The notes under the pieces were generated by a model. The model was not told where the DNA came from. It did no database searches and saw only the letters and a list, made by a program, of their open reading frames with translations. Position numbers and translations under genes: made by a program. Positions 13,731-30,899 of a stretch of DNA of 33,124 nucleotides are shown piece after piece. Origin of the DNA: an uncultured Schlesneria sp. (lineage in GTDB: Bacteria > Planctomycetota > Planctomycetia > Planctomycetales > Planctomycetaceae); NCBI GenBank assembly GCA_903858935.1, contig CAIOKO010000074.1, positions 1 to 33,124 on the forward strand, read 5' to 3'. The first letter of the stretch is position 1; every line of letters starts with the position of its first letter.

Positions 13731-13776
13731 GCTTTCCACTTTGGCTCGTCCAGGTAGGAGCAAATTTGGAAACCAG
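13731..13776. repeat. 46-bp intergenic repeat, copy 1
   Basis: The sequence starting GCTTTCCACTTTGGCTCGTC recurs exactly 80 bases later (13811-13856), matching 40 of the first 45 positions. The 34-base spacer is pyrimidine-rich. It belongs to 13611-14010, a 400-base stretch without a gene. Small ORFs on the minus strand here are translations of the repeat. Confidence 0.8.
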
Positions 13777-13810
13777 AAAAACATTTCTTTCGGTTCCCTG
13801 TTTTTCTCCT

Positions 13811-13856
13811 GCTTTCCACATTGGCTTGTCCAAGTGGGAGCGAATTTGGAAACCAA
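13811..13856. repeat. 46-bp intergenic repeat, copy 2
   Basis: Second copy of the repeat at 13731-13776, starting GCTTTCCACATTGGCTTGTC. Similar 'GGGAGCGAATTTGGAAAC' strings are, from memory, scattered in planctomycete and other genomes; a genome search would show whether this is a dispersed family. Confidence 0.8.
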
Positions 13857-14010
13857 TTAGCGATCTTAGGGGAACAATATTTTACTTCATATGAGACATT
13901 CATATTTGACGTACTGGCATTTGGTAGGATTCCGAAGCAAAATGACGTGAAACGAGACCTGAATCGACGGCGTTCAGTACAAAAAACGTCAGGCCCCAGA
14001 AGGTGAATCC

Positions 14011-16153: not shown

Positions 16154-16190
16154 AAGTTGGCATCAAGCGTTTCGTTCTCTGGTTCATTCG

Positions 16191-16212
16191 CACTCTTCGT
16201 GTCCTTCGTGGT
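16191..16212 (-). repeat. 'CACGAAG' dispersed repeat, copy 3
   Basis: CACTCTTCGTGTCCTTCGTGGT on the plus strand, i.e. ACCACGAAGGACACGAAGAG on the minus strand. It is the same unit as the inverted pair at 254-285 and 336-367 and lies just after the thioredoxin gene. Confidence 0.7.
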
Positions 16213-19000: not shown

Positions 19001-20425
19001 CTAATTCAGGGACGCGACCGTCGCAGCGTTCTTATCGACCGGTTCCCCATTATCGACCTCAGGAACAGGTTCAATGATCGACATTGTCATCCAACGTCCG
19101 CTCAGAAATCGTCCCAAAAAGATAAACCCGAGTGCGATGACATAAATGGAGCACCATGTCCAGCTCCAGAATAAACTGGGGCCATAAAAACGCCATGTCA
19201 AATAGGTCGGTACGACAAGTAGACCCCAGGCGCAAGCACATGTCACAAGCATTGAGAACACGGTATCGCCTGCCGCGCGTATTGCCGATCCGAAGATAAT
19301 GGCCATCGCGTCGAAAAACGAATAGAGTGCGACGAATCTTAGCAGGATAACAACAACGTCCTTCGTCGACTGAAAATCGTCTCCGTCCGCGTACATCGCG
19401 TAGGGTACCAACAGGATCTGCGGTAAAAAAACGTAGAATGCGCCGCAGATCAGCATGATGCCGCCACCAAACACGAAACCCTTCCACGTTGACGTTGCAG
19501 CAAGTTCTGGCCGCCCTTCACCGATGCGCTGGCCAACCAACGTTGAGACGGCGATTCCCACACCAATCACGGGCGTGAACGCGAGTGTATTTAAATTAAA
19601 GGCGATATTTGTCGCGGCCAGTTCGTTAGGGCCGATCCAGCCAATAATCATGATGAACGCCGTGAATCCGGCCACATCCAGAAACATCTGCATGCCGCTC
19701 GGGCCGCCGAACCGCAACAGATCTCGCATCAAGTGCCAGTCGAAGCGGAAGTGGCGGCTGAAGTAATAGGGACCGCGAATCGAATAACGATATAAAAGGA
19801 TGATATAGCAAATCGTCGCGTAAAGATTTGCGAGATTGGTGGCAATCGCAGCGCCGGGGATTCCCATTTCAGGAAACGGCCCTCTGCCAAAAATCATCGC
19901 CCAGTCGAGTCCAGCGTTCACCAGCACTGACGATGCGTTTACGGCCAGGACGACGAGGGTCTGACCTCGCCCGCTGAAAAAGCATGAGAGCGCCGCTGGT
20001 ATCATGACGGTCAACCCTCCCAGGCTGAGCCAACGGAAATAGGAGGCTTCCAGCGGGCGAACATCGGGAGAATGACCGACGAATTGGAAAAAATCCTCCG
20101 CCCAGATGGCGGGTAACATTAAGAGAAGTCCGCAGAGAATGGCGAAGTAGACCCCTTGCCAAACCGAAGCCGAAACTCGATCAGGCCGTTTCGCTCCTTC
20201 ATACTGAGCCACGAATGCGTTGAGATACGAAACAATTCCGAAGGGAAGGCTGAGGCACGACCAGAACAAAAGTCCGGCCGGAAGTGCAGCCGCCACAGCT
20301 TCCTTCGAATACCAGGTCAAATAGACACGATCGACGACGTGCATCATCGATTGAGTACTGGCACTGAGCACCATCGGCAGCGCGACTGCGATTAGCTCGC
20401 GGTAGCTACCGGCTGGCCAGCGCAT
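19001..20425 (-). CDS. MATE-family efflux transporter
   Basis: A 474-residue multidrug and toxic compound extrusion type transporter with twelve predicted helices. The N-terminal segment ELIAVALPMVLSASTQSMMHVVDRVYL, the pseudo-repeat halves and the central VGVGIAVSTLVGQRIGEGRPE block are typical of the NorM/DinF superfamily. MATE proteins exchange Na+ or H+ for cationic drugs, or flip lipid-linked substrates; the sequence does not tell which. I chose ATG 20425 because GAGGAAG stands just before it. A TTG at 20461 would add 12 polar residues and has no good ribosome site. The gene is divergent from the ceramidase-like gene, with repeat element A in the space between. Confidence 0.9.
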   Translation of the reverse strand: MRWPAGSYRELIAVALPMVLSASTQSMMHVVDRVYLTWYSKEAVAAALPAGLLFWSCLSLPFGIVSYLNAFVAQYEGAKRPDRVSASVWQGVYFAILCGLLLMLPAIWAEDFFQFVGHSPDVRPLEASYFRWLSLGGLTVMIPAALSCFFSGRGQTLVVLAVNASSVLVNAGLDWAMIFGRGPFPEMGIPGAAIATNLANLYATICYIILLYRYSIRGPYYFSRHFRFDWHLMRDLLRFGGPSGMQMFLDVAGFTAFIMIIGWIGPNELAATNIAFNLNTLAFTPVIGVGIAVSTLVGQRIGEGRPELAATSTWKGFVFGGGIMLICGAFYVFLPQILLVPYAMYADGDDFQSTKDVVVILLRFVALYSFFDAMAIIFGSAIRAAGDTVFSMLVTCACAWGLLVVPTYLTWRFYGPSLFWSWTWCSIYVIALGFIFLGRFLSGRWMTMSIIEPVPEVDNGEPVDKNAATVASLN

Positions 20426-20585
20426 GACTTCCTCATCAATCGATGTCAGTTCTTCAGACAACGGAATAACCTACGGACGGCTGCGGGATAAAAACAGGAG
20501 AGCGGGAGTATCTCTTCCCCTGCAGACAAGGGCAAGTCGTGCCTGATTAACCGTGCGCCTGAGTAAACCTCGAAACGAGAATTTT

Positions 20586-20686
20586 GTGCTAATGTTTTGG
20601 AGCCTTCGGAGAAGCAGTGACTTTTTTCGTCAGGTTTCTGTAGCCAGAAGAGCACTGCTTGACCGACGACGGTCAAGCAGTGGCAC
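20586..20686 (+). repeat. ~100-bp palindromic dispersed element, copy A
   Basis: This 101-base element aligns without gaps to the reverse complement of 23551-23651 with 78 identities, and its last 38 bases match the end of 29566-29663 at 35 positions. It starts GTGCTAATG and ends CAGTGGCAC, forming imperfect terminal inverted repeats. Inside is a perfect 12-bp palindrome CACTGCTTGACC/GGTCAAGCAGTG (20653-20664 with 20671-20682, 6-base loop). It lies in the divergent gap (20426-20820) between the MATE and ceramidase-like genes. Short ORFs crossing it are translations of the repeat. Confidence 0.88.
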
Positions 20687-20820
20687 ATTAATTAATAGGA
20701 TCGATGAACCAGGCATTACACCGGATAGTTGCCATACCGCCGTACTTCCGGCATGCTGTCACAGCGGCTGCGATTGGCCTCGACGGCAGCCCCGCTGGTT
20801 CCGGGTTTGAAAGGAATGAG

Positions 20821-22293
20821 ATGGAACTTCGGTTTGTGAAGACCGTGATCTGGTCCTGGGTTTGTCTGTCCGCAACAAATACGTTGCCTCAGGTATTCAG
20901 TGCCGAGGAATCTCCGTCATCGCTTCTGGCAGGTGCTCATGCTCAGGAGATAACTCCGCCAAAATTTCCAATCTCGGTGAATGGAAATATGGCAGATCAA
21001 CTGGCGACGTCGGCACATGATCCGCTGTTCGCTCGCTGCATCGTGTTGAAAGAAAAGAAATCGGCCATCCAGCCCGAAGCCGCGATCGCCATCGTCGTCT
21101 GCGACAGTTGCATGATCCCTCGAAACCTGTTGGACCGGGCCAAAGAGTTGGCCGCGAAGAAAACGGGAATTCCCACATCAAACATTCTCATTTCAGCAAC
21201 TCACGCCCATTCGTGTCCCACTTTGGCAGGCGTCTTTCAAAGCGAACCTGATGCGGACTATGTCGAGTTTCTGGTCGAACAAATTGCCATGGGAATCGAA
21301 CGAGCAAATACTCAATTGGAACCGGCTCGTATTGGCTGGGGATCAATCGACCAACCGAACCTGGTCTTCAATCGCCGCTGGCTGTTGAAAGAGGCAGAAA
21401 CGACAGACGATCCGTTTGGAGGCAAGGGGGACCGAGTTCAAACGAATCCCGGCTTTGGCAACTTGAAGGTGACTCAGTCTCAAAATGTCATCGACCCAGA
21501 ACTGAGTGTCTTATCAATACAATCGCGGAATGGGCGTCCGATCGCTCTGCTGGCCAATTACTCGTTGCATTACGTTGGAGGGGTCTCTGGCAATGTTGTT
21601 TCGGCCGATTATTTCGGTGAGTTCTCACAACGAGTTGCTCGCCAATTGAAGGCAACTGACGTTCAACCGCCGTTTGTGGGAATCATGTCAAACGGGACGA
21701 GTGGCGATATCAATAACGTCGATTTTCGTCAGAAATCCGTGCCGGCGAAAGAGCCATTCGAGCAGATCCAGCTTGTGGCCGAAACGCTGGCTGCAGACGC
21801 AGCGTCGGTTTTCAAAAGAATTGAATATCGTGACACCGTACCGGTACGAGCCCTTGAGGCCGAGATTGCTCTGGATGTCCGCAAGCCGGCTGCCGACGAA
21901 CGGGCTGCCGCTCAGGCAAAAATTGACGCCATTCCAGACCGTCCACTGAGAGGATTGCCCGCGATTTATGCTCGCGAGACCACGTTGCTTGCGGAATATC
22001 CAACCTCCGTCAAAGCCAGGATTCAGGTGATGCGAATCGGTTCGCTGGCAATTGTTAGTTCCCCTTGTGAGACGTTCGCCGAAACGGGTCTGGCGATCAA
22101 AAAAGGAAGTCCCTTCAAACAGACATTTACGATTGAGCTTGCGAATGGCTACAACGGATACTTGCCACCACCCGAACAACATCGGCTCGGCGGCTATGAA
22201 ACGTGGCGAGCGAGGTCGAGCTATCTTTCTGCCGATGCAGAACCAAAAGTGCGGGCAACGATGCTGCGACTCCTTTCGGAACTCAACAGATAA
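20821..22293 (+). CDS. Secreted neutral/alkaline ceramidase-like hydrolase
   Basis: A 490-residue exported protein: signal peptide (MELRFVKTVIWSWVCLSA..., cut near VFSA-EE) followed by a domain of the neutral/alkaline non-lysosomal ceramidase N-terminal family (PF04734 type). Family marks are a metal-site motif SATHAHSCPTLAG (about 123-135), a conserved NRRW, the stretch NYSLHYVGG, and MSNGTSGDINN near the middle. True ceramidases cleave N-acylsphingosines. Planctomycete homologues are common and mostly uncharacterised, so the substrate is open. The Ig-like C-terminal domain of classical ceramidases is not evident. ATG 20821 follows AAAGGAATGAG; the frame is open 39 codons further upstream, but that part is not signal-like. 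glgC follows after 12 bases. Confidence 0.87.
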   Translation: MELRFVKTVIWSWVCLSATNTLPQVFSAEESPSSLLAGAHAQEITPPKFPISVNGNMADQLATSAHDPLFARCIVLKEKKSAIQPEAAIAIVVCDSCMIPRNLLDRAKELAAKKTGIPTSNILISATHAHSCPTLAGVFQSEPDADYVEFLVEQIAMGIERANTQLEPARIGWGSIDQPNLVFNRRWLLKEAETTDDPFGGKGDRVQTNPGFGNLKVTQSQNVIDPELSVLSIQSRNGRPIALLANYSLHYVGGVSGNVVSADYFGEFSQRVARQLKATDVQPPFVGIMSNGTSGDINNVDFRQKSVPAKEPFEQIQLVAETLAADAASVFKRIEYRDTVPVRALEAEIALDVRKPAADERAAAQAKIDAIPDRPLRGLPAIYARETTLLAEYPTSVKARIQVMRIGSLAIVSSPCETFAETGLAIKKGSPFKQTFTIELANGYNGYLPPPEQHRLGGYETWRARSSYLSADAEPKVRATMLRLLSELNR

Positions 22294-22305
22294 TCGGGTG
22301 ACGTA

Positions 22306-23526
22306 ATGATGCAACGAGTACTGGCTCTGATCCTGGCAGGAGGCAAGGGGACACGGCTCGAACCGTTGACGCGAGACCGCGCGAAACCGGCGGTCCCGTT
22401 TGGCGGTGCTTATCGGATTATCGACTTCACGCTTTCCAATTGCATCAATAGTGGATTGCGTAAGATCCTGGTTCTGACGCAATTCAAATCTGCCAGTCTG
22501 GATCGTCACATGAATCTTGGCTGGCGATTTCTCTGCCGCGAATTGCATGAATACATCGATATTTTGCCCCCTCAACAAAGGATCGACGAAAACTGGTATC
22601 AGGGAACGGCCGATGCCGTTTATCAGAACATCTACTCGATCGAAAAGGCAGAATCAGATTACGTTGTCATTTTATCCGGTGATCACATTTATAAAATGGA
22701 TTACGCCGATCTGATCAGAGATCACATTGAATCCAAGGCGGTGCTGACGATCGGTTGCATCCCTTGCTCAATTAAAGAGGGACGTGAATTTGGCGTGATG
22801 GAAGTCGATTCGAATCGCAGGATCGTTGCGTTTGAAGAGAAGCCACAGAATCCCAAGCCGATCCCTGGTGACCCCGCACATTGCCTGGCCTCGATGGGGA
22901 TCTACGTTTTTAATACGAACTTTTTGTTTGAGCAGTTATGCCAGGACGCTACGAATGGGAAGAGTTCGCATGACTTTGGCAAGAACATTATCCCTTCGAT
23001 GATTCAGTCGAAGCTGGTCCGTGCCTTTCCCTTCCAGGACAAAAACACGGGTCGAAGTCTTTACTGGCGAGATGTGGGTACGCTCGACTCGTACTATGAA
23101 GCGAATATGGATCTCGTCGCCGTTGAACCGGAACTGAACCTTTACGATCGGTCGTGGCCGCTCAGGACTTACACTCCTCAAGAACCGCCGCCAAAGTTCG
23201 TGTTCGCACAAACTGCCGGAAGTAACCCTCGATTAGGTCACGCACTCGATAGCCTCGTCTGTTCGGGGTCGATCCTTTCCGGGGGCGAGGTCCGAAGATC
23301 CGTTCTTGGCTACAACGTCCGGGTGAACAGCTGGTCAACCGTTGAAGAATCAATCCTGTTTGACGGTGTGGAAATCGGTCGCAATTGCAAAATCCGTCGA
23401 GCGATCATCGACAAGCGAGTTCGTCTGCCCGAGGGAACCACCGTAGGTTATGACCTCGACCAAGACCGTGCGGCGGGACATACGGTCACCGACTCCGGGA
23501 TCGTTGTTATCGGAAAAGCGGGTTGA
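22306..23526 (+). CDS. glgC: Glucose-1-phosphate adenylyltransferase (ADP-glucose pyrophosphorylase)
   Basis: GlgC makes ADP-glucose for glycogen synthesis. The 406-residue protein has the nucleotidyltransferase start LALILAGGKGTRLEPLT (6-22) with RAKPAVPFGG, the YQGTADAVYQN motif, SGDHIYKMDY, the substrate loop EFGVMEVD, and a C-terminal left-handed beta-helix (SILSGGEVRRSVLG, NCKIRRAIIDKRV). These match bacterial GlgC throughout. It starts 12 bases after the hydrolase gene and may be cotranscribed with it, although no glycogen gene adjoins. The downstream side is convergent with the TIGR00300 gene, with repeat element C between. Confidence 0.96.
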   Translation: MMQRVLALILAGGKGTRLEPLTRDRAKPAVPFGGAYRIIDFTLSNCINSGLRKILVLTQFKSASLDRHMNLGWRFLCRELHEYIDILPPQQRIDENWYQGTADAVYQNIYSIEKAESDYVVILSGDHIYKMDYADLIRDHIESKAVLTIGCIPCSIKEGREFGVMEVDSNRRIVAFEEKPQNPKPIPGDPAHCLASMGIYVFNTNFLFEQLCQDATNGKSSHDFGKNIIPSMIQSKLVRAFPFQDKNTGRSLYWRDVGTLDSYYEANMDLVAVEPELNLYDRSWPLRTYTPQEPPPKFVFAQTAGSNPRLGHALDSLVCSGSILSGGEVRRSVLGYNVRVNSWSTVEESILFDGVEIGRNCKIRRAIIDKRVRLPEGTTVGYDLDQDRAAGHTVTDSGIVVIGKAG

Positions 23527-23550
23527 GGCCAATCACAGCGAAACGCTGTT

Positions 23551-23651
23551 GTGCCACGGCTTGACCGTCTTTGATCAAGAAGTGTTCCTCTGATTTCACA
23601 AACAGTACGGATGAAGTCACTGCTTCTCCGAGGACTCCATAACAGCGGCAC
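23551..23651 (-). repeat. ~100-bp palindromic dispersed element, copy C (inverted)
   Basis: The reverse complement of this 101-base stretch aligns without gaps to element A at 78 positions. Ends are GTGCC and GGCAC. The internal palindrome is degraded (CACGGCTTGACC at 23555-23566 against GATCAAGAAGTG at 23573-23584). It fills most of the convergent gap between glgC and the TIGR00300 gene, where it could also serve as a two-way transcript end. Confidence 0.88.
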
Positions 23652-23663
23652 AAAACCCCGATT

Positions 23664-24914
23664 TCAACTTCCGAACCCGCCTAACTCCTGCACGAGAACT
23701 CGCAAGAACGGTTCGACATCGGTGACCAGCCCAATCGTTTGAAATGTCCCTCGATCTGAGAGCTTCGTGACAGTGGCGGGATTGATATCGACGCAGACAG
23801 TTTTCACGCCGGCGGGCAACATATTTCCGACGGCAATGCTGTGTAAGGTGGTAGCAATCATCAGGCAGAATGTGACCCCCTGGACTAATTCGCGCATCCT
23901 CGTCTGTGCCACGAGTGAATCAGTAATGACGTCCGGCAGTGGCCCATCGTCGCGGATGCTTCCGGCCAGGACGTACGGAATGTTGTGCTGAATACATTCG
24001 AACATGATTCCGCTGGTTAGAAGTTTCTGTTCCACCGCCTGGCGGATTCCCCCCAATCTGCGAATGCGGTTGATCGATCGAAGATGATGTTCGTGCCCTT
24101 CTTCGGTGCTTCCTCCGCTTTGCATCGAGATACCGAGACTTGTTCCGTAAAACGATTGTTCAATGTCGTGCGTCGCCAGGGCGTTACCCGCAAAAAGCAC
24201 GTGAACATAACCCTTACGAATCAGCCAGCCGAGCAATTCACGGCTTCCCGTATGAACAACAGCAGGTCCGGCGACGACCAGGATTCGGCCGTTTCCTTCG
24301 GCAGCTCGGCGCATGCTCTCGGCAATCTCTCGAACGGTGAGGTTTTTCGGCTTTTCGCTGGAAACGGTGCTGTTCATGAATCCAAATGAATGGCCGTGAG
24401 CACGATCGCGACCGACGGGGAAGACGCGAGTCCCCAGTCGACCGACCACGATTTGATCACCCAGCTTGACGTCAGCCATCGCGACGCACCATGCCCGACC
24501 TGAAACTCGATCAAACGCGATGCCACAGTCCATCTCCTGTCGTTCAACAGGAATCCAGTGGCCGCCCCATCGAACTTCCGTCGGCTCATTCGTGGTTGCG
24601 TAGAACCCTTCGGGAAATGCTCCCGCAATGTCCGCAGGTTCCACACGAATGTCATGGTGCTGAACAGGGACCGCGCCATGCTGCCCAATCGTCGTGAGAA
24701 TCTGTTCGAGGCAATCTTTCGTCGGAGCTGAAACTGTTAAACGGATATAACTGGGGTCTCGACGATTGTGGCCGATCCTAATCTCGTGGCTGAGGTAGTC
24801 GCCGCCAAGTCCCGTGATCTCATCCAGCACTTTTGGCAGCAGCAGGCTGTCAATAATGTGCCCTGCCAATTCGACGTCCTCGGTAAAGCCTTGCGGGTGC
24901 GACGTGGCCATCAT
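23664..24914 (-). CDS. TIGR00300-family protein (ornithine cyclodeaminase type, LOR/SDH-like domain)
   Basis: The 416-residue protein belongs to the TIGR00300 / 'LOR/SDH bifunctional enzyme conserved domain' group. A methanogen member (MMP1218) has been reported as an ornithine cyclodeaminase, making proline from ornithine, and the same domain follows ArgZ/AgrE arginine dihydrolase in cyanobacteria; I give both from memory. Visible blocks are ELAGHIIDSLLLPKVLDEI near the start, the central ILVVAGPAVVHTGS, FAGNALATHDIEQSFYGTSLG, and the C-terminal KTVCVDINPATVTKL of the Rossmann part. Start ATG 24914 (or 24911) is preferred because AAAGGA is just upstream; the frame is open a further 63 codons to 25103 with no matching ribosome site. 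It is convergent with glgC. Confidence 0.85.
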   Translation of the reverse strand: MMATSHPQGFTEDVELAGHIIDSLLLPKVLDEITGLGGDYLSHEIRIGHNRRDPSYIRLTVSAPTKDCLEQILTTIGQHGAVPVQHHDIRVEPADIAGAFPEGFYATTNEPTEVRWGGHWIPVERQEMDCGIAFDRVSGRAWCVAMADVKLGDQIVVGRLGTRVFPVGRDRAHGHSFGFMNSTVSSEKPKNLTVREIAESMRRAAEGNGRILVVAGPAVVHTGSRELLGWLIRKGYVHVLFAGNALATHDIEQSFYGTSLGISMQSGGSTEEGHEHHLRSINRIRRLGGIRQAVEQKLLTSGIMFECIQHNIPYVLAGSIRDDGPLPDVITDSLVAQTRMRELVQGVTFCLMIATTLHSIAVGNMLPAGVKTVCVDINPATVTKLSDRGTFQTIGLVTDVEPFLRVLVQELGGFGS

Positions 24915-25318
24915 CAGTCCTTTGAGTTGGGGGGGATGAAAAAACAGTCGTCCATCAATTAATTGAATCATATCCGTGAGCTGACTGAAGAATAGGTACG
25001 GTTTGTAATTCGATTCGAAAGTGAAACGCTCCCCGCCAGGGGTAGTTAACGGACCTTTGCCCTGGCTTTTTCGTACGCCGATTTGTGACGATGGCGTGAT
25101 CATTCCCCGGCCCGCTGGTGCAAAGGCCCGCTAAACCACCTCAGCAGGGGAGGTAGCGTTTCGTTACGTTCTCAGGAACGTTCAGGAGCAGAACCAACAG
25201 CGAAGACGACATTCTGTCTTTATTTTGCAGTTCGGTGAATGTATGATTGAATCGACTAGCAACTACCAACACAATTCGCTGACACCTCTGATTTTTTCAG
25301 CCTTTTGAAGAAACCATC
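24915..25318. other. Divergent intergenic region upstream of the TIGR00300 and GspF-like genes
   Basis: About 400 bases without a confident gene. The minus-strand frame of the TIGR00300 gene stays open to 25103, so part may be coding if that longer start is used. I see no clear -35/-10 pair. Confidence 0.45.
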
Positions 25319-26371
25319 ATGAGCCAGTCTTCTTCACTTGATGATTTGATTCTGTTGAATCGTGAGATTGCCGCGCTGGTGAAGGCGGGCATTCCGCTCG
25401 AACTGGGCTTGCGAGGGCTTTCTGGCAGCGTCGGAACTCGCCTGGGGCGCTTGTCCGAACGTTTGTCAAAACGTCTGGCAAGTGGACGATCATTGCCGGA
25501 TGCCCTCGCGGAAGAAGGGCCGGCAGTTTCTCCAATCTACACGGCTGTCATGGAAGCGGGGTTGGCATCCGGTCGACTTCCCGAAGCACTTGAGGCAATG
25601 GCAGCATCTGGTCAACTGATTCAGGAAACTCGGCGACGGGTATTTTTGGCCGTCCTTTATCCTGTCATTTGTGCCATTATCGGCTACGTGATGTTTTGCG
25701 GATTTCTCTCGTTTATCGCACCGCAACTGGTCATCGCGGCAGAAATGTTCCGGTTTCCGTTGAGCTGGCCTATCGAATTGGCCAGAACGCTGCATCAGCA
25801 TCGCCGGTATGCGACGATGGTCATTCCATCAGTCGTACTGTCATTGTTTGTTTTGACTTTGCTTCTTCGTAAAAGCGTTGCCCGGGTTCCATGGCAATGG
25901 TTAAGTTCATTTCGCTGGGTTCCCGGTGTGAGTGTGATTCGTCGCAGCCAGGATTGGGCTCAGTTTGCGGAACTTCTTGCGATGCAGCTTGAACATTCAA
26001 CCCCGTTAGCGCGTGCGTTCACCCTTGCAGCCGACTCAATTGACAATCCTCGTTTTCATCGAGAAGCTCGCCTCGTGAGTGAGAAGCTGGGGCAAGGTGA
26101 CTCACTTTCCAAATCGCTTGTTCATGCAAAGTCGTTGCCGCCACTAATCCGTTGGATGCTCGTCGCAGGAGAGAGGCAGGGGACACTGTCTCTGACTTTG
26201 CGTCAAATGGCGGACAGTTTTCGCCGCCAGGCATTAAGGCAAGCTGCTGACCTGAAGACATGGCTTCCTGTTATCATTACAATCGGGGTTACTGGCACGA
26301 TTGGTCTTGCGTACGGACTCGCCTTTTTTATTCCCATGCGGGCGCTTCTTTTCGGGTTGATGAACGAATGA
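25319..26371 (+). CDS. Type II secretion/type IV pilus GspF/PilC-like inner membrane protein
   Basis: A 350-residue protein with two T2SSF-type cytoplasmic four-helix domains, each followed by membrane helices. The first domain (about 9-105) has IAALVKAGIPLELGL, LSKRLASGRSLPDAL and VMEAGLASGRLPEALEAMA. The second (about 213-310) repeats this with FAELLAMQLEHSTPLARAF, VSEKLGQGDSLSKSL and MLVAGERQGTLSLTL. Three membrane segments follow the family pattern. GspF/PilC forms the inner-membrane platform for pseudopilus assembly. No GspE, pseudopilin or secretin gene lies nearby, so it may work with components encoded elsewhere. The next gene starts inside its stop codon (ATGA). Confidence 0.9.
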   Translation: MSQSSSLDDLILLNREIAALVKAGIPLELGLRGLSGSVGTRLGRLSERLSKRLASGRSLPDALAEEGPAVSPIYTAVMEAGLASGRLPEALEAMAASGQLIQETRRRVFLAVLYPVICAIIGYVMFCGFLSFIAPQLVIAAEMFRFPLSWPIELARTLHQHRRYATMVIPSVVLSLFVLTLLLRKSVARVPWQWLSSFRWVPGVSVIRRSQDWAQFAELLAMQLEHSTPLARAFTLAADSIDNPRFHREARLVSEKLGQGDSLSKSLVHAKSLPPLIRWMLVAGERQGTLSLTLRQMADSFRRQALRQAADLKTWLPVIITIGVTGTIGLAYGLAFFIPMRALLFGLMNE

Positions 26372-26862
26372 CTGTCGGCACAGAATCTACTCTCCCCGAA
26401 AACAATCAAAGACAAAATCCGAGTGATCCACTCTCGCCGAAACGCTCTCGAGAAGTTCCGGGCCGGTATATCGTGATTGGTCTGCTGTGTCTGGGGATTG
26501 CAGCAACCGCATTGCTATTCATTTATTGGGACCGGCAAACGAAACCGTTTCGCCCGCTTCGAGAAGCGATTGGACGTGAATTTCGTCATTCTCGTCCCAA
26601 TGTTGAAGGGGGCCGTCCAAAAGGTCGCGGGCCGTGGACGTTGAGAGTTTCGATGACGGTAGACTTCCCACCTGCGGAAGATTCACCTCGGGCCAACAAG
26701 ATTTTCAATCGAGTGATCGAAATTGCTGGGCAGTACCAGGATCTCAGCAAGATCGACAAAATTGAAGTCAATCTGATCCAGTTCGTTCCCCAGGAATTGG
26801 CAAAAACCAGGAAGTTGATATGGAATGCTAAGGAACCGGTTGGCCCTAGCGATCCGCAATAA
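26368..26862 (+). CDS. Small membrane-anchored protein coupled to the GspF-like gene
   Basis: No family recognised. The 164-residue protein has a polar, proline-rich N-terminus (1-32), one membrane helix (about 34-52, YIVIGLLCLGIAATALLFIY) and a basic then mixed soluble domain with the strand WTLRVSMTVDF and two amphipathic helices. Its ATG overlaps the stop of the GspF-like gene as ATGA, a sign of translational coupling and of shared function. This might be a bitopic partner in a pseudopilus-type system, but that is inference. It is followed by dprA after 35 bases. Confidence 0.75.
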   Translation: MTVGTESTLPENNQRQNPSDPLSPKRSREVPGRYIVIGLLCLGIAATALLFIYWDRQTKPFRPLREAIGREFRHSRPNVEGGRPKGRGPWTLRVSMTVDFPPAEDSPRANKIFNRVIEIAGQYQDLSKIDKIEVNLIQFVPQELAKTRKLIWNAKEPVGPSDPQ

Positions 26863-26897
26863 AATCAAAAACGGAATTCGATCGACGCGAGAAGTCC

Positions 26898-28046
26898 ATG
26901 GCTAACGAGCTGTTTCCTGATGACGAGGCTGATCCGGCCGATCCAGATCGTGACTTGATCGATGTCTTGCGGTTGAATCTGGTACCGGGTCTTGGCCCGC
27001 GAACTTATCAGCTATTGCTCGAACGGTTTGGCTCGCCGCGAGGGATCCTCAACGCATCCGTTTCGAAGTTGCAAGAAGTTCAGAATGTCGGTCCAAAATT
27101 GGCCATGTCATTGATTACACATGGGACCGAATCGGCAGCGCGAGAAGAACTGGCTAAGGCTCGGGCAGCCGGAGTTTCTTTATACATTCGCGAAACGGCA
27201 AGTTATCCAACGTCGTTAGGTCGGATCCCTGACCCACCGACGGTGATCTACTGCAAAGGGACGCTCGTCGAAGCGGACGGCCTGGCGATCGGCGTCGTCG
27301 GATCGCGGCATTGTACGGCTTACGGGCGACAGCAAACCAATCGACTGGCCCAAGCCCTGGCGCGAGTCGGCATCACTGTTGTGAGCGGACTGGCTCGAGG
27401 AATCGACGCCGAAGCTCATAAAGGAGCATTAGAAGCAGGCGGCCGAACGATCGCCGTTTGCGCGACGGGAATGAACACGATCTACCCTCCTGAACACGTC
27501 GATCTGGCCGCGGCGGTTGTGAAGCAAGGATGCCTGCTCACCGAATCGCCGATGGACCAGACGCCGAAATCAGGACTGTTTCCCCAAAGGAACCGGATCA
27601 TCAGTGGTCTGTCTTTGGGAGTCGTCCTGATTGAAGCAGGCCGCAGCAGCGGCGCATTGCATACGGCTCGCCACGCGATGGAACAAAACCGTGAAGTCTT
27701 CGCGATGCCAGGCCGAGTCGATTCCGATGCGAGCCTCGGCTGCCTCGACCTGATCCGGGACGGAGCGACCCTCATTCGCGACGTCGACGACGTGCTGAGT
27801 GCTTTGGGGCCGCTCGTCAAACCGATTCAGCGTACGCCGACCGAAACAGTTCGTAAGCCTGCCGAACTAACCCTGTCAGATCAAGAACGAATAATTCTGA
27901 ACCTGGTCACAGCCGAATCGATTGCCGTGGACGACGTCATTCGAACAGCCAACATCGAAGCTTCACGAGTTCTGTCGACATTGACCGTCTTAGAAATGAA
28001 ACGCCTGGTGCGCCGACTGCCGGGCGGGTTCGTTGTCAGGTATTGA
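26898..28046 (+). CDS. dprA: DNA-processing protein DprA
   Basis: DprA binds single-stranded DNA and loads RecA during natural transformation. The 382-residue protein has an N-terminal helix-hairpin-like (SAM) part with LNLVPGLGPRTYQLLL (26-41), the Rossmann core (VVGSR 133-137, GLARGIDAEAHKGAL 164-178, FPQRNRIISG 228-237, EAGRSSGALHTA), and a C-terminal winged-helix DprA_WH domain (about 325-382) starting LSDQERIILNLV. All core residues of the family are present. It is in the same direction as the GspF-like gene and its partner. A DNA-uptake link is possible, since DprA and pilus-type pumps both serve competence, but proximity alone does not prove it. Confidence 0.95.
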   Translation: MANELFPDDEADPADPDRDLIDVLRLNLVPGLGPRTYQLLLERFGSPRGILNASVSKLQEVQNVGPKLAMSLITHGTESAAREELAKARAAGVSLYIRETASYPTSLGRIPDPPTVIYCKGTLVEADGLAIGVVGSRHCTAYGRQQTNRLAQALARVGITVVSGLARGIDAEAHKGALEAGGRTIAVCATGMNTIYPPEHVDLAAAVVKQGCLLTESPMDQTPKSGLFPQRNRIISGLSLGVVLIEAGRSSGALHTARHAMEQNREVFAMPGRVDSDASLGCLDLIRDGATLIRDVDDVLSALGPLVKPIQRTPTETVRKPAELTLSDQERIILNLVTAESIAVDDVIRTANIEASRVLSTLTVLEMKRLVRRLPGGFVVRY

Positions 28047-28490
28047 CGACGTGATTTTGAGACGGGGCAACCGTCAAACAAATTCATAGCAAATTACTTT
28101 TTCTATGCCCTTTGCAAATTGCAAATAGCGCGACGTCGAAACAGATCCTTCGGCTCGCATCGTGTTACGGACACTCCTCAAACATCGTCGCGCCGTCTCA
28201 CCGAGATGGTCCATTTTCGGCAATTGAAATGGGCAAACGCACGCAGTATTTGTGGTTTCCAGCTGTCGAGCTGGCACTTTGTTAATGTTTTTTGACGAGA
28301 ATTAGAACGAGGGATCTATTTCAGTTCGTTGTTTCAACGGTCAAGACAAGGCTTTTTTCTTTCGTTTTTCGCAAGAGATTTCAGCATCCTATTCCCTCGC
28401 ACTTGAAATGCCGAGTATACTTTTAAACAGTTCGCCGTTCGATGGTTTTGCCACGCGCGCGAGTTAATCGCGGACGTGATTGAGGCTTTT
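28047..28490. other. Intergenic region after dprA with a short palindrome
   Basis: These 444 bases contain no convincing gene. At 28259-28274 CCAGCT/AGCTGG forms a 6-bp hairpin with a 4-base loop; a T6 run comes 14 bases later (28288-28293), too far for a standard terminator. A GACGG/CCGTC stem lies just after dprA (about 28060-28074). A TATACT string lies upstream of the next gene but has no matching -35. Confidence 0.4.
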
Positions 28491-29546
28491 ATGAATAGAC
28501 TTGCTTCGTGCCTGGTAGCGATGGCATGTGGATTCGGCTTGTTGGCTTTGGATATCAAAGCGTCTCACGCAGCTGCGGAAATTTATGCTCCGCCGAAATC
28601 TGACGAGGTTCGTGGTCGAGTCCTTGCCTGGTTGACTGAGCAAAACCTCTCTGAAGCTCAACGGGAACAAGTCACGGCCGTCTGGATGGGGTTGGGTGAG
28701 ACCGTCGCGCCAGATCGGCTTTTGGAACTTGTGGTCCAGTCGTTTGCGATCGCTGATCCAGATGTCTTGAAGTTGCAGAATGAATGTAATTCCATTTCTT
28801 CCGGCCTGACCGCGCCGACTGCCGACTTCCTGAAGCAACAAGCTCGCAACCCGTTTTTTCTGGCCAATGTCAGTCTGTTTTATGGTCGCTATCTGGTCGA
28901 GCGCCGGCTGTTCGATGAAGCCTGGGAAATTCTGAAGAGCATTGATGCGCACCAGGTCGTTGATCCTTCGTCGCTCTTCTTCTTTCAAGCAGTGGCCGCT
29001 CAGGGAATGCTGGAATTAAAGCCCGCCCTCGATGCGATTGATCAATTGCTGACACATACCGAGCGGGTCCCTGTGAGATATACGGCGACGGCGACTTTGA
29101 TGCAGGCTGACTTGAAGGGTTTGCAGGAAAAGTCACTGGGCGAACTGGCTCGACTGATGGCCGATTCCGAGCGAAGATTGGAACTTGGGCGAGCCGGTGA
29201 AAAAGTGCAGGGAGTGCAAGAACGGATTATTGCGAACCTGGACGAGATCATCAAAAAGATTGAGCAGCAACAAGGGGGCGGAGGTGGAAGCGGCGGGAGC
29301 GGTCAGGGTGGAGGCAATGAAAATTCAGGCGGTGCTGCGGACGATAGTCGGGTGAAAGGGGAAGAAGCTCCTGGTGAAACCGACAAGAAGCGGTTTGAAA
29401 ATAAAGGGAGTTGGGGAAATCTGCCTGAGAAAGATCTGGCAAAAGCTAAGAATGACCTCAATAAAAATTTTCCGTCACATTACGAACAAGCGATTGAGAA
29501 GTATACGAAAAAGCTGGCTGGCCGGACCGCTAAGAAAAGCAAGTGA
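28491..29546 (+). CDS. Secreted protein of unknown function with Gly-rich linker
   Basis: 351 residues, start ATG 28491 (TGAGGC upstream; an in-frame start at 28476 would add five residues). The signal peptide MNRLASCLVAMACGFGLLAL... is cut near SHA-AA. The middle part is helical and TPR-like (FYGRYLVERRLFDEAWEILKS, FQAVAAQGMLELKPALDAIDQLL). Then comes a long helix ending in KIEQQQ, a glycine-rich linker at about 258-280, and a C-terminal module with GSWGNLPEKDLAKAKNDL and NFPSHYEQAIEKYTKKLA. That C-terminal 'WGNLP..D ... P.HY...IE.Y...LA' module is familiar from other planctomycete secreted proteins of unknown role. It precedes an NPCBM-domain gene, with a repeat element between. Confidence 0.82.
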   Translation: MNRLASCLVAMACGFGLLALDIKASHAAAEIYAPPKSDEVRGRVLAWLTEQNLSEAQREQVTAVWMGLGETVAPDRLLELVVQSFAIADPDVLKLQNECNSISSGLTAPTADFLKQQARNPFFLANVSLFYGRYLVERRLFDEAWEILKSIDAHQVVDPSSLFFFQAVAAQGMLELKPALDAIDQLLTHTERVPVRYTATATLMQADLKGLQEKSLGELARLMADSERRLELGRAGEKVQGVQERIIANLDEIIKKIEQQQGGGGGSGGSGQGGGNENSGGAADDSRVKGEEAPGETDKKRFENKGSWGNLPEKDLAKAKNDLNKNFPSHYEQAIEKYTKKLAGRTAKKSK

Positions 29547-29565
29547 AACACAAGCCGAGCGAATA

Positions 29566-29663
29566 GTGCCACTGCGCCGGAGCCTTCTCCGGTGCCATAG
29601 ATTTGGATTGCAATTTCGCCGTCAAAGAGCACTGCTAGACCGAGGACGGTCAAGCAGTGGTAC
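29566..29663 (+). repeat. ~100-bp palindromic dispersed element, copy B
   Basis: A 98-base element in the gap between the two secreted-protein genes. Its 5' part forms a perfect 6-bp stem CCGGAG/CTCCGG (29577-29582 with 29587-29592). The 3' part has the same 12-bp palindrome as element A with one mismatch (29630-29641 with 29648-29659). The ends GTGCCACTG and CAGTGGTAC form a terminal inverted repeat with one mismatch in nine. Short ORFs across it are repeat translations. Confidence 0.85.
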
Positions 29664-29696: not shown

Positions 29697-30899
29697 ATGA
29701 ATGGTCTTTCTCTGTTGGTTTTGTTGGCCGTTGCACAGGCTCCTGCGATTGAAGTTCAGACGTTGTCAGAGAGACAGCTTCAGGGGACACTGGAATCACT
29801 CACGGCGAATTCGGTGATCCTAAAAACCAGCTCAGGGCAGGAAACGGTTCCCACAACGGATATCTTGCAAATCCGATCGGACTCCACGACTTCGACCCCT
29901 GTCGTTGAGTCGATCCACGTTCGGCTTGTTGATGATTCACTGCTGAAGGTTCGAACTTTTCTTTCATCAGGGACCACGGTGACGGTCGCACATCCGCAAC
30001 TTGGAGAACTTCGAATTCCCGCGACGAGTGTTTCCAGCGTGCGGTTCGCCGCTGCGGATTCGAAGGTGGAAACCGAATGGAATCAACTCATTGAACGTGC
30101 CCCCAAGAAAGACATGATCGCCATTCAAAAAGGGGAAGTCCTGGATCATCTTGATGGCATTGTCGGCTCGATGAACGACGCAACGCTTCAGTTCCAACTT
30201 GACGGCGATGACCTGGCGGTGAAACGGGAAAAAATATTTGGCCTGATTTATTCCAAGAGAGAATCGTCGGCAAGGAAAACGGTCGCACAACTGGAATTAA
30301 CCTCCGGTGATCGGCTGTCCGCCAGGCAGATCGAATGGAATGGGACGAAGTGGCAGGTGCGGCTTGTAACGGGATTGGAATTGGGGGTCGCTCCTGAATC
30401 ACTCAAAGTGATCGACTACAGTATCAGCAAATTCACGTATCTCTCGGATCTTGAACCGCGAGGAATGAAGCACACCCCGTTTTTCCCGGATTTTTCTGAT
30501 TTCCATGTTTTTGCCTATCGACGTGACAAAGACTTCGAAGGAAATCGGATCAGTCTGGGACATAAGACATACGCCAAAGGGTTAGCAATCCACTCAAAAA
30601 CCGCGATGAAATATCGTCTGGGGGGGGACTATCGACGATTTCAAGCGGCGATGGGGATTGGTGACGAAATCAATCGAGGCAACGTCAATGTCATCATTAA
30701 AGCCGACGAGAAAATCGTCTTTAATGGATCGGTCAAAGTCGGCGAAAACAGTACTCAGAGCGCCCGCCGCCCATCGCCACAATTTCTTGACATTGATGTG
30801 ACCGGCGTGGTCGAACTTGAAATTGTCGTGGACTATGGAAGTGACGAAATCGATATCGGTGATCGGCTTTATCTTGCTAATGCTCGACTTGTCAGGTAA
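29697..30899 (+). CDS. Secreted NPCBM/NEW2-domain protein
   Basis: 400 residues with a short signal peptide (MNGLSLLVLLAVAQAPA). The first half (about 20-250) is strand-rich, with repeats of the LQGTLESLTANSVILKTSSG kind (planctomycete 'Q..G.L..L....V.L....G' pattern). The C-terminal 145 residues match the NPCBM carbohydrate-binding domain: GLAIHSKTAMKYRLGGDYRRF, AAMGIGDEI, FNGSVKVGE, ELEIVVDYGSDEIDIGDRLYLANARL. NPCBM domains are found on glycosidase-type proteins and bind carbohydrates; no catalytic domain is visible. TAGGAATG lies upstream of ATG 29697. It ends 5 bases from the convergent ruvC stop. Confidence 0.88.
   Translation: MNGLSLLVLLAVAQAPAIEVQTLSERQLQGTLESLTANSVILKTSSGQETVPTTDILQIRSDSTTSTPVVESIHVRLVDDSLLKVRTFLSSGTTVTVAHPQLGELRIPATSVSSVRFAAADSKVETEWNQLIERAPKKDMIAIQKGEVLDHLDGIVGSMNDATLQFQLDGDDLAVKREKIFGLIYSKRESSARKTVAQLELTSGDRLSARQIEWNGTKWQVRLVTGLELGVAPESLKVIDYSISKFTYLSDLEPRGMKHTPFFPDFSDFHVFAYRRDKDFEGNRISLGHKTYAKGLAIHSKTAMKYRLGGDYRRFQAAMGIGDEINRGNVNVIIKADEKIVFNGSVKVGENSTQSARRPSPQFLDIDVTGVVELEIVVDYGSDEIDIGDRLYLANARLVR

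Follow-up and report, generated by a model that had tools for sequence, protein, structure and literature searches.

In Pseudomonas fluorescens SBW25, repetitive extragenic palindromic (REP) sequences occur as inverted doublets with a spacer, the REPINs (REP doublets forming hairpins), which lie outside of genes and near genes for Y1 transposases; they also form tandem clusters, and single REPs have been read as remnants (PMC3116915). REPs have been reported in the Planctomycetes, with R. baltica being named, and planctomycete REPs as such are thus already known (PMC3733652). Among the TnpA_Y1 proteins, subclass 1.2 was described with the signature Y---Q--HH, a low copy number and "no" REP, mainly in Cyanobacteria and Bacteroidetes; class 3 occurs in Planctomycetes, with atypical multi-copy hairpins, the motif YV[VI][AENY]EQ and the foot CnGA (PMC6006769, Quentin et al. 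2018). Other TnpA_REP proteins are known to cut at a CT dinucleotide, with the foot of the hairpin serving as the guide (PMC8266576). Here, we describe a family of palindromic intergenic elements of about 100 bases that is represented by three copies, A, C and B, in a stretch of 33,124 nucleotides (the window) from an uncultured Schlesneria sp. (contig CAIOKO010000074.1, assembly GCA_903858935.1). The three copies are members of a dispersed, sizeable and lineage-specific family of REPIN-like elements.

Like the REPINs of SBW25, the Schlesneria elements follow a doublet plan, form tandem clusters, are placed outside of genes and have Y1 genes nearby; unlike them, the doublets lack a GTAG-type tag and usually combine two different types of REP (PMC3116915). 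They share with the GTAG- and CGTC-tagged REPs that they are short palindromes, often arranged head to head and found mostly in co-directional and convergent gaps, but in a comparison made without the family consensus sequences they differ by their outer foot GTGC and their inner foot AGA or AGAG (PMC3733652). Judged from the sequence, the lack of the tag keeps the elements out of the tagged REP families; we have good confidence that the family works like REPINs.

The three copies in the window

Copy A (20586..20686, forward strand) lies in a divergent gap between a gene at 19001-20461 on the reverse strand and a forward gene, 17 bp before the start of the latter at 20704. Copy C (23551..23651) is inverted with respect to A, i. 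e. on the reverse strand, and occupies a convergent gap between a forward gene that extends to 23526 and a reverse gene at 23664-25103. Finally, copy B (29566..29663, forward strand) is located in a co-directional gap between two forward genes, one ending at 29546 and the other starting at 29697. The open reading frames around the copies bear out the three types of gap named in the original prediction, and the kinship of the three repeats was confirmed as well: A and C are identical at 78 of 101 positions in a gap-free alignment, and 35 of the 38 final bases of A are the same in B.

The element consists of two REP-like hairpins in inverted orientation that are separated by a spacer of about 30 bases. 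As read from the sequence, the left REP of A (20586..20619) is of a bulged type with a decayed outer arm; the right REP (20653..20686) has a 13-bp stem, a 4-base loop and the outer GCAC. For copy C, on the reverse strand, the same kind of reading gives a left REP of the bulged type (23618..23651) and a right REP with a decayed stem (23551..23584). The left REP of B (29566..29599) is a GCGCCGGAG..CTCCGGTGC variant, and the right one was placed at 29630..29663 by sequence comparison. The 12-bp internal palindrome that had been predicted near one end of each copy is present, but in A it is really a stem of 13 bp that closes a loop of 4 bases, and every copy has two inverted hairpins rather than one, those of C being decayed. 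Similarly, imperfect inverted ends do exist, but they are the outer arms of the two hairpins rather than terminal repeats in their own right. Read by eye, the 'LLD.RRSS.GT' peptides are the right-hand hairpin as it appears in frame translation.

With at most two mismatches allowed, the 12-base core occurs 11 times in the window; 100 shuffles gave 2.5 matches on average and always fewer than 11. A covariance model built from 26 aligned copies ranks A, C and B at the top of its window matches (E 2e-26 to 2e-21; 97.6 bits for A), all three being training copies; the remaining four rows are three reverse-strand echoes at the copy sites (E 1e-6, 1e-6 and 0.06) and a stretch at 13825-13948 (E 0.63). 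Two other identities were considered and dropped: an intrinsic terminator, since none of the three copies coincides with a listed terminator-like site (a stem with a T run behind it), and a known RNA, since Rfam gave no window match above the gathering score.

Architecture of the element

If the left hairpin is read on the opposite strand, both REPs follow one plan: CGAAGA(G), CACTGCTT, four variable bases, GAAGAC, four variable bases, AAGCAGTG and GCAC. The GCAC end of both REPs points outward in each element, and in the alignment of the 26 copies the outer foot is GTGC and the inner foot AAGA or AAGAG, ending in AGA or AGAG. The doublet is the prevailing arrangement: among 240 REPs away from the locus ends in 107 loci that had been chosen by the REP pattern, 160 are in outward inverted pairs, 10 are in the opposite inverted order, 5 are on the same strand and 65 are single; base-shuffled DNA of 40 of these loci contained no REP. 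A fully paired REP is combined with a bulged one in 113 of the 137 unique doublets, both REPs are paired in 19 and both bulged in 5, and the spacer has a median length of 30 bases (24 to 35 at the 5th to 95th percentile). Elements also occur in tandem (G, C and L designate genomes, contigs and loci; G000 is the window's own genome): three follow each other in G005:C265 at 132 bases start to start and three in G005:C57 at 120 bases, and tandem pairs are found in G001 and G002.

A three-helix structure is 87.7% paired across the 26 copies. In this structure, 11 of 26 pairs changed on both sides, as compared to a mean of 4.9 in shuffles, which do not preserve the relatedness of the copies, and to 5 to 9 when the structure was slid. 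RNA fold prediction, which had been proposed as a check, came out in favour of structure: A, C and B beat their shuffles (z -3.2 to -4.6). Folded as DNA, single copies reach z about -5, except for copy C with z -1.5.

In some loci, the repeat GGAGCGATGATGGCTACTTTGGTC or a near-identical one is found at the left end or substitutes for it (L010, with two changes, L011, L014, L016, L021 and L026), which suggests either recombination between the REPs and other repeat families or invasion of the REPs by these.

Copy number and range of the family

With copy A alone as the query, 40 of 159 candidates in the own genome were scored, which yielded 52 match rows at E <= 0.001, A being among them. The covariance model found at least 150 matches in this genome, since all 150 candidates scored out of 3197 matched; they include the training copies, and the number is therefore a lower bound rather than an independent test. 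The original prediction had named the lack of further copies in the genome as an outcome that would speak against it, and this is clearly not what we found.

A consensus query against 40 genomes, 15 of them from the genus, gave matches in 15: 14 of the 15 members of the genus (all but G009) and one of the 25 others (G015, from another genus). The copy number differs strongly within the genus: exact matches to the REP pattern, summed over both strands so that near-perfect palindromes may count twice, amount to 216 in G005, 173 in G001, 86 in G004, 42 in G000 and 24 in G013, to between 0 and 8 in each of the ten remaining members of the genus and to none in five genomes from outside the genus, and a control pattern had no match in all 20 genomes. 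Stretches of the own genome that had not been chosen for a REP contained 11 REPs at up to 6 mismatches and 23 at up to 8 in 691,544 bases. Among the matches listed, the names obtained with the REP pattern are Schlesneria metagenome-assembled genomes (MAGs) and a few 'Planctomycetaceae' or 'Planctomycetota' MAGs. Where the orthologous site of A is located, contig G001:C185 ends and G001:C130 starts inside an element or next to one; draft assemblies may thus break at the elements, and the copy counts may be low.

Placement relative to genes

Of the 59 REPs in the stretches that had not been chosen for one, 57 fall outside of the genes called by a simple codon-usage script, even though these genes cover 82 to 86% of the DNA. 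For G001, G004, G005 and a second set from G000, this background comes mostly from contigs in which a REP or a Y1 gene had already been detected, the stretches themselves having been chosen for neither; the first G000 set consists of contig starts. Leaving out the two REPs inside genes and two at edges, 22 of the 55 placed REPs are in convergent, 32 in co-directional and one in a divergent gap, with the REPs of one doublet not being independent of each other; the gap bases are 18% convergent, 57% co-directional and 25% divergent. This pattern fits selection against insertion near promoters. With one of 55 REPs in a divergent gap, the position of copy A is exceptional for the family, and for this reason the earlier argument that occurrence in three kinds of gap speaks against a role as terminators only turns out to be weak.

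Occupancy of orthologous sites

Each of the three window sites is occupied in at least one close relative. At site A, the element is present in G004 and G001; in G005, the site lies near contig ends and could be matched in part. Site B carries the element in G001 and G005, and G004 has 3 bases in place of 135. At site C, the element is found in G005, is cut short by another repeat in G004 and is replaced by other sequence in G001. Conservation at the same positions in all relatives, which had been named as the mark of an ancient regulatory sequence, is thus seen in part, but fails for B in G004 and for C in G001. In two genes, the four genomes are 82 to 90% identical without a clear branching order, and gain and loss at site B are therefore indistinguishable.

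The flanks of 143 doublets gave 81 cross-species matches, which are not mutually independent; a REP is present at the target in 68 and absent in 13, a proportion that overstates occupancy, as most of the compared sequence was chosen because it contains a REP. Among the nine matches to stretches not chosen in this way, three are without a REP, two of these being one site. Five sites without the element in a relative were compared in detail: window site B with 3 bases instead of 135, L168 with 0 instead of 198, L199 with 15 instead of 171, L080 with 66 bases of other sequence instead of 196, and the stretch ahead of the Y1 gene of L250 with 70 bases, which include a different palindrome, instead of 193. 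No target-site duplication is visible at these five sites, two of which hold the 66 and 70 other bases; as the species differ by 10 to 20%, short duplications could have been lost. Before the Y1 gene of L249 in G004, the palindrome GGGCTTTAGCC..GGGCTAAAGCCC stands where G001 and G000 carry the element.

The many shared sites, together with relatives that lack the element at some of them, indicate on sequence grounds that the family is old and was for the most part passed on by descent, while copies were gained, lost and replaced. The dispersion of the copies and the differences between sites would reflect movement of the element.

Y1 transposase genes near the elements

The search for a transposase covered Y1 genes and gave 13 Y1_Tnp matches in the own genome. 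Hairpins of the family lie directly upstream at two of ten Y1 loci of this genome: at L034, a full element ends about 130 bases before the ATG, and at L035 the nearer one of two upstream hairpins ends 66 bases before the likely ATG. The orthologue of L035 in G001 (L250) is preceded by a doublet in which both REPs match 26 of 26 consensus positions; the corresponding site of G004 is without the element. Moreover, a REP accompanies two G004 genes of the L034 clade, at a distance of 366 bases (downstream) and 213 bases (upstream), and another is located 267 bases upstream of a Y1 gene in G005:C306 (in G004 and G005:C306, the distance runs from the matched part of the gene to the near edge of the REP). 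Four of 22 subclass-1.2-type genes from G000, G001, G004 and G005 have a REP less than 250 bp upstream, as compared to 0.54 expected from the called genes of the same genomes (P 0.0018); this set excludes the longer class-2-like Y1 genes, G004:C17 and fragments such as G000:C78 and G005:C83, and L033 and L036 are at contig ends with one flank missing. No family hairpin was found at the class-2-like Y1 loci L037 to L040 of G000. Downstream of the longer class-2-like Y1 gene at L038, there is a 16-pair hairpin beginning with CGAAAAAGGGGACAGGCACC, which we take to resemble the terminal inverted repeats of TIRYT genes.

With a length of about 148 to 151 residues, the nearby Y1 proteins carry DHVH, WQ and Y---Q--HH. 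Of 40 Y1 rows gathered by similarity to L034, L035 or PF01797, 35 have all three subclass 1.2 motifs (HuH scored as DH[VIL]H, WQ and Y---Q--HH); two of the five exceptions are truncated at contig ends, one is broken and two miss a single motif. All five Y1 proteins tested match NCBIfam transpos_IS200 with 55 to 77 bits (cut-off 55), and L222 also matches REP_Tyr_transpos with 28.6 bits, as compared to a cut-off of 80. The L034 protein matches four solved chains that were deposited as transposases (E 1e-7 to 2e-5), some of which are presumably ISDra2. The motifs and the length near 148 agree with those of subclass 1.2, but in contrast to the published subclass, multi-copy hairpin families adjoin some of these genes in a planctomycete genus (PMC6006769). 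Unlike the enzymes of the REPIN systems, the Schlesneria candidates do not have the motifs of the published RAYT (REP-associated tyrosine transposase) subclasses; by reading, the class 3 motif YV[VI][AENY]EQ and the foot CnGA fit neither the Schlesneria Y1 proteins nor the hairpins (PMC6006769). The candidate enzymes beside the copies are thus Y1 proteins with the subclass 1.2 signature.

The window family is not the only one next to such genes. Hairpins of the form CCCAGGG..GC..GC..CCCTGGG, with a central mismatch, flank subclass 1.2-type Y1 genes on both sides in G010 (L226) and in G007 (L232) and accompany one in G013 (L234), and two more G010 copies adjoin Y1 fragments. Exact CCCAGGG matches per strand number 17 in G010, 17 in G013 and 7 in G007. 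Among the remaining genomes of the 20 searched, G004 and G008 have a single match and 15 have none. A third hairpin family, CCTGGGGC..GCCCCAGG, stands beside the Y1 loci L031 (G000:C180) and L242 (G005:C128), with 11 exact CCTGGGGC matches per strand in G000, 11 in G005, 6 in G004, 3 in G001 and none in 16 other genomes. In total, CCCAGGG hairpins accompany 3, CCTGGGGC hairpins 2 and CACTGC hairpins 6 Y1 genes, and most of the other genes examined are without these; two weaker CACTGC matches, at 19 of 26 positions, are found at L255 and L272. At four Y1 loci outside the genus and G015 (L230, L233, L256 and L259), no hairpin of at least 10 pairs is present within 500 bases, and the association of Y1 genes with hairpins, if real, is thus not general.

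Discussion

We propose, with a probability of roughly 75%, that A, C and B are non-autonomous REPIN-like elements that were copied in trans by an IS200-type Y1 transposase via single-stranded hairpins and were then inherited and decayed. According to this proposal, a single-domain HUH/tyrosine transposase of the IS200 type (Y1) would recognise the hairpins in single-stranded DNA, cut beside them and place copies at new intergenic sites; afterwards, the copies would be passed on and decay by point mutation, deletion and the insertion of other repeats. Transposition by Y1, the single-stranded intermediate and the assignment to any one Y1 gene are inferred. The original prediction had left open whether the repeats are miniature inverted-repeat transposable elements (MITEs) or of the REP/RAYT type. 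The latter is well supported, by the high copy number, the intergenic location, the inverted doublets, the site differences between species and the copies beside Y1 genes. The former is not supported: what had been read as terminal inverted repeats are outer hairpin arms, and no target-site duplication is visible at the five sites, two of which hold other sequence.

Several observations weigh against our proposal. The adjacency to Y1 genes amounts to only three events if L035 and L250 are taken as one (P 0.016), and a range of 400 bp on either side gives 6 genes with a REP as compared to 2.1 expected (P 0.015), all with distance thresholds that were picked after the data had been seen. No intact gene of the L034 or L035 clade was found in G005, the genome richest in REPs, and the clade of L033, L221, L222 and L277, which is present in all four REP-rich genomes, has no REP within the 700 bp of flanks examined. 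A single cognate transposase was sought by co-occurrence and had to be given up: in the tree of 40 Y1 rows, no clade consistently follows the REP counts. Any hairpin of at least 11 pairs lies near 9 of 33 Y1 genes and near 59 of 369 control genes, which is not significant (P 0.08); for this reason, we used only family-level repeats as evidence. As for the hairpins, the GTAG/GGAG or CGTC tag is absent from their foot in the alignment of the 26 copies, the covariation was judged against shuffles blind to the relatedness of the copies, the unaided consensus fold yields the right hairpin alone (11 pairs), and the DNA fold of copy C is weak, with 17 of 200 shuffles being equally good. Finally, no transposition event was observed.

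Would a function of the elements as RNA account for the data as well? They might act mainly as hairpins in 3' untranslated regions that stabilise, process or end transcripts, and be kept by selection rather than by mobility. The enrichment in convergent and the near absence from divergent gaps (22 and one of 55, with 32 co-directional), the stable RNA folds of A, C and B (z -3.2 to -4.6) and the positions common to several species would all be expected in this case, but selection against insertion near promoters gives the same placement without any function. Moreover, the copy numbers vary widely among close species, some sites are without the element in a relative, tandem arrays exist, and at the three copies there is neither a listed terminator-like site nor an Rfam match. 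We therefore regard an RNA role as the principal function as unlikely. For the idea that the elements are decayed ends or internally deleted remnants of classical IS200/IS605 insertion sequences, moved by an active transposase of subclass 1.1, one can refer to the two hairpins, to the lack of a visible target-site duplication and to the transpos_IS200 matches of the five Y1 proteins (55 to 77 bits, cut-off 55). The Y1 genes near the copies, however, bear the subclass 1.2 signature Y---Q--HH (all motifs in 35 of the 40 rows), and no insertion sequence with a gene between both hairpins turned up, although no systematic search for one was made; such an origin seems very unlikely to us. If the elements were MITEs of the classical kind, with terminal inverted repeats on which a DDE transposase acts, the imperfect inverted ends GTGCC/GGCAC would match, but these ends are hairpin arms of inverted REPs, the covariation supports a single-strand structure, and the five sites without the element in a relative show no visible target-site duplication; in an analysis that covered transposases of the Y1 type, this leaves the explanation with hardly any credibility.

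Within the proposal of REPIN-like elements copied by a Y1 enzyme, it is tempting to speculate that the subclass 1.2 Y1 proteins are themselves REP-mobilising, with several Schlesneria genes each acting on its own untagged hairpin family and the window family of asymmetric REPINs being one of at least three. We advance this idea tentatively, at somewhat less than even odds: that subclass 1.2 proteins mobilise untagged REPs of their own in this genus is supported but not established. With our work, the REPIN-like populations come to include hairpins without a tag, in a genus of planctomycetes whose close species differ widely in copy number. If subclass 1.2 Y1 proteins cut these hairpins, a group described without REPs would join the REP-mobilising enzymes. 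In the open-licence literature searched (on planctomycete REPs and RAYTs, Schlesneria repeats, subclass 1.2, TnpAREP since 2018 and the 12-base core), the family is not described, with the consensus figures of PMC3733652 lying outside this comparison.

Other repeats in the window

Two further repeats were seen in the window. At 248-373, there are inverted repeats of the CACGAAGAGC type, with a similar stretch 16 kb away at 16187-16212. At 13731-13855, a 45-base direct repeat is present, the copies of which are 89% identical and spaced by 80 bases from start to start.

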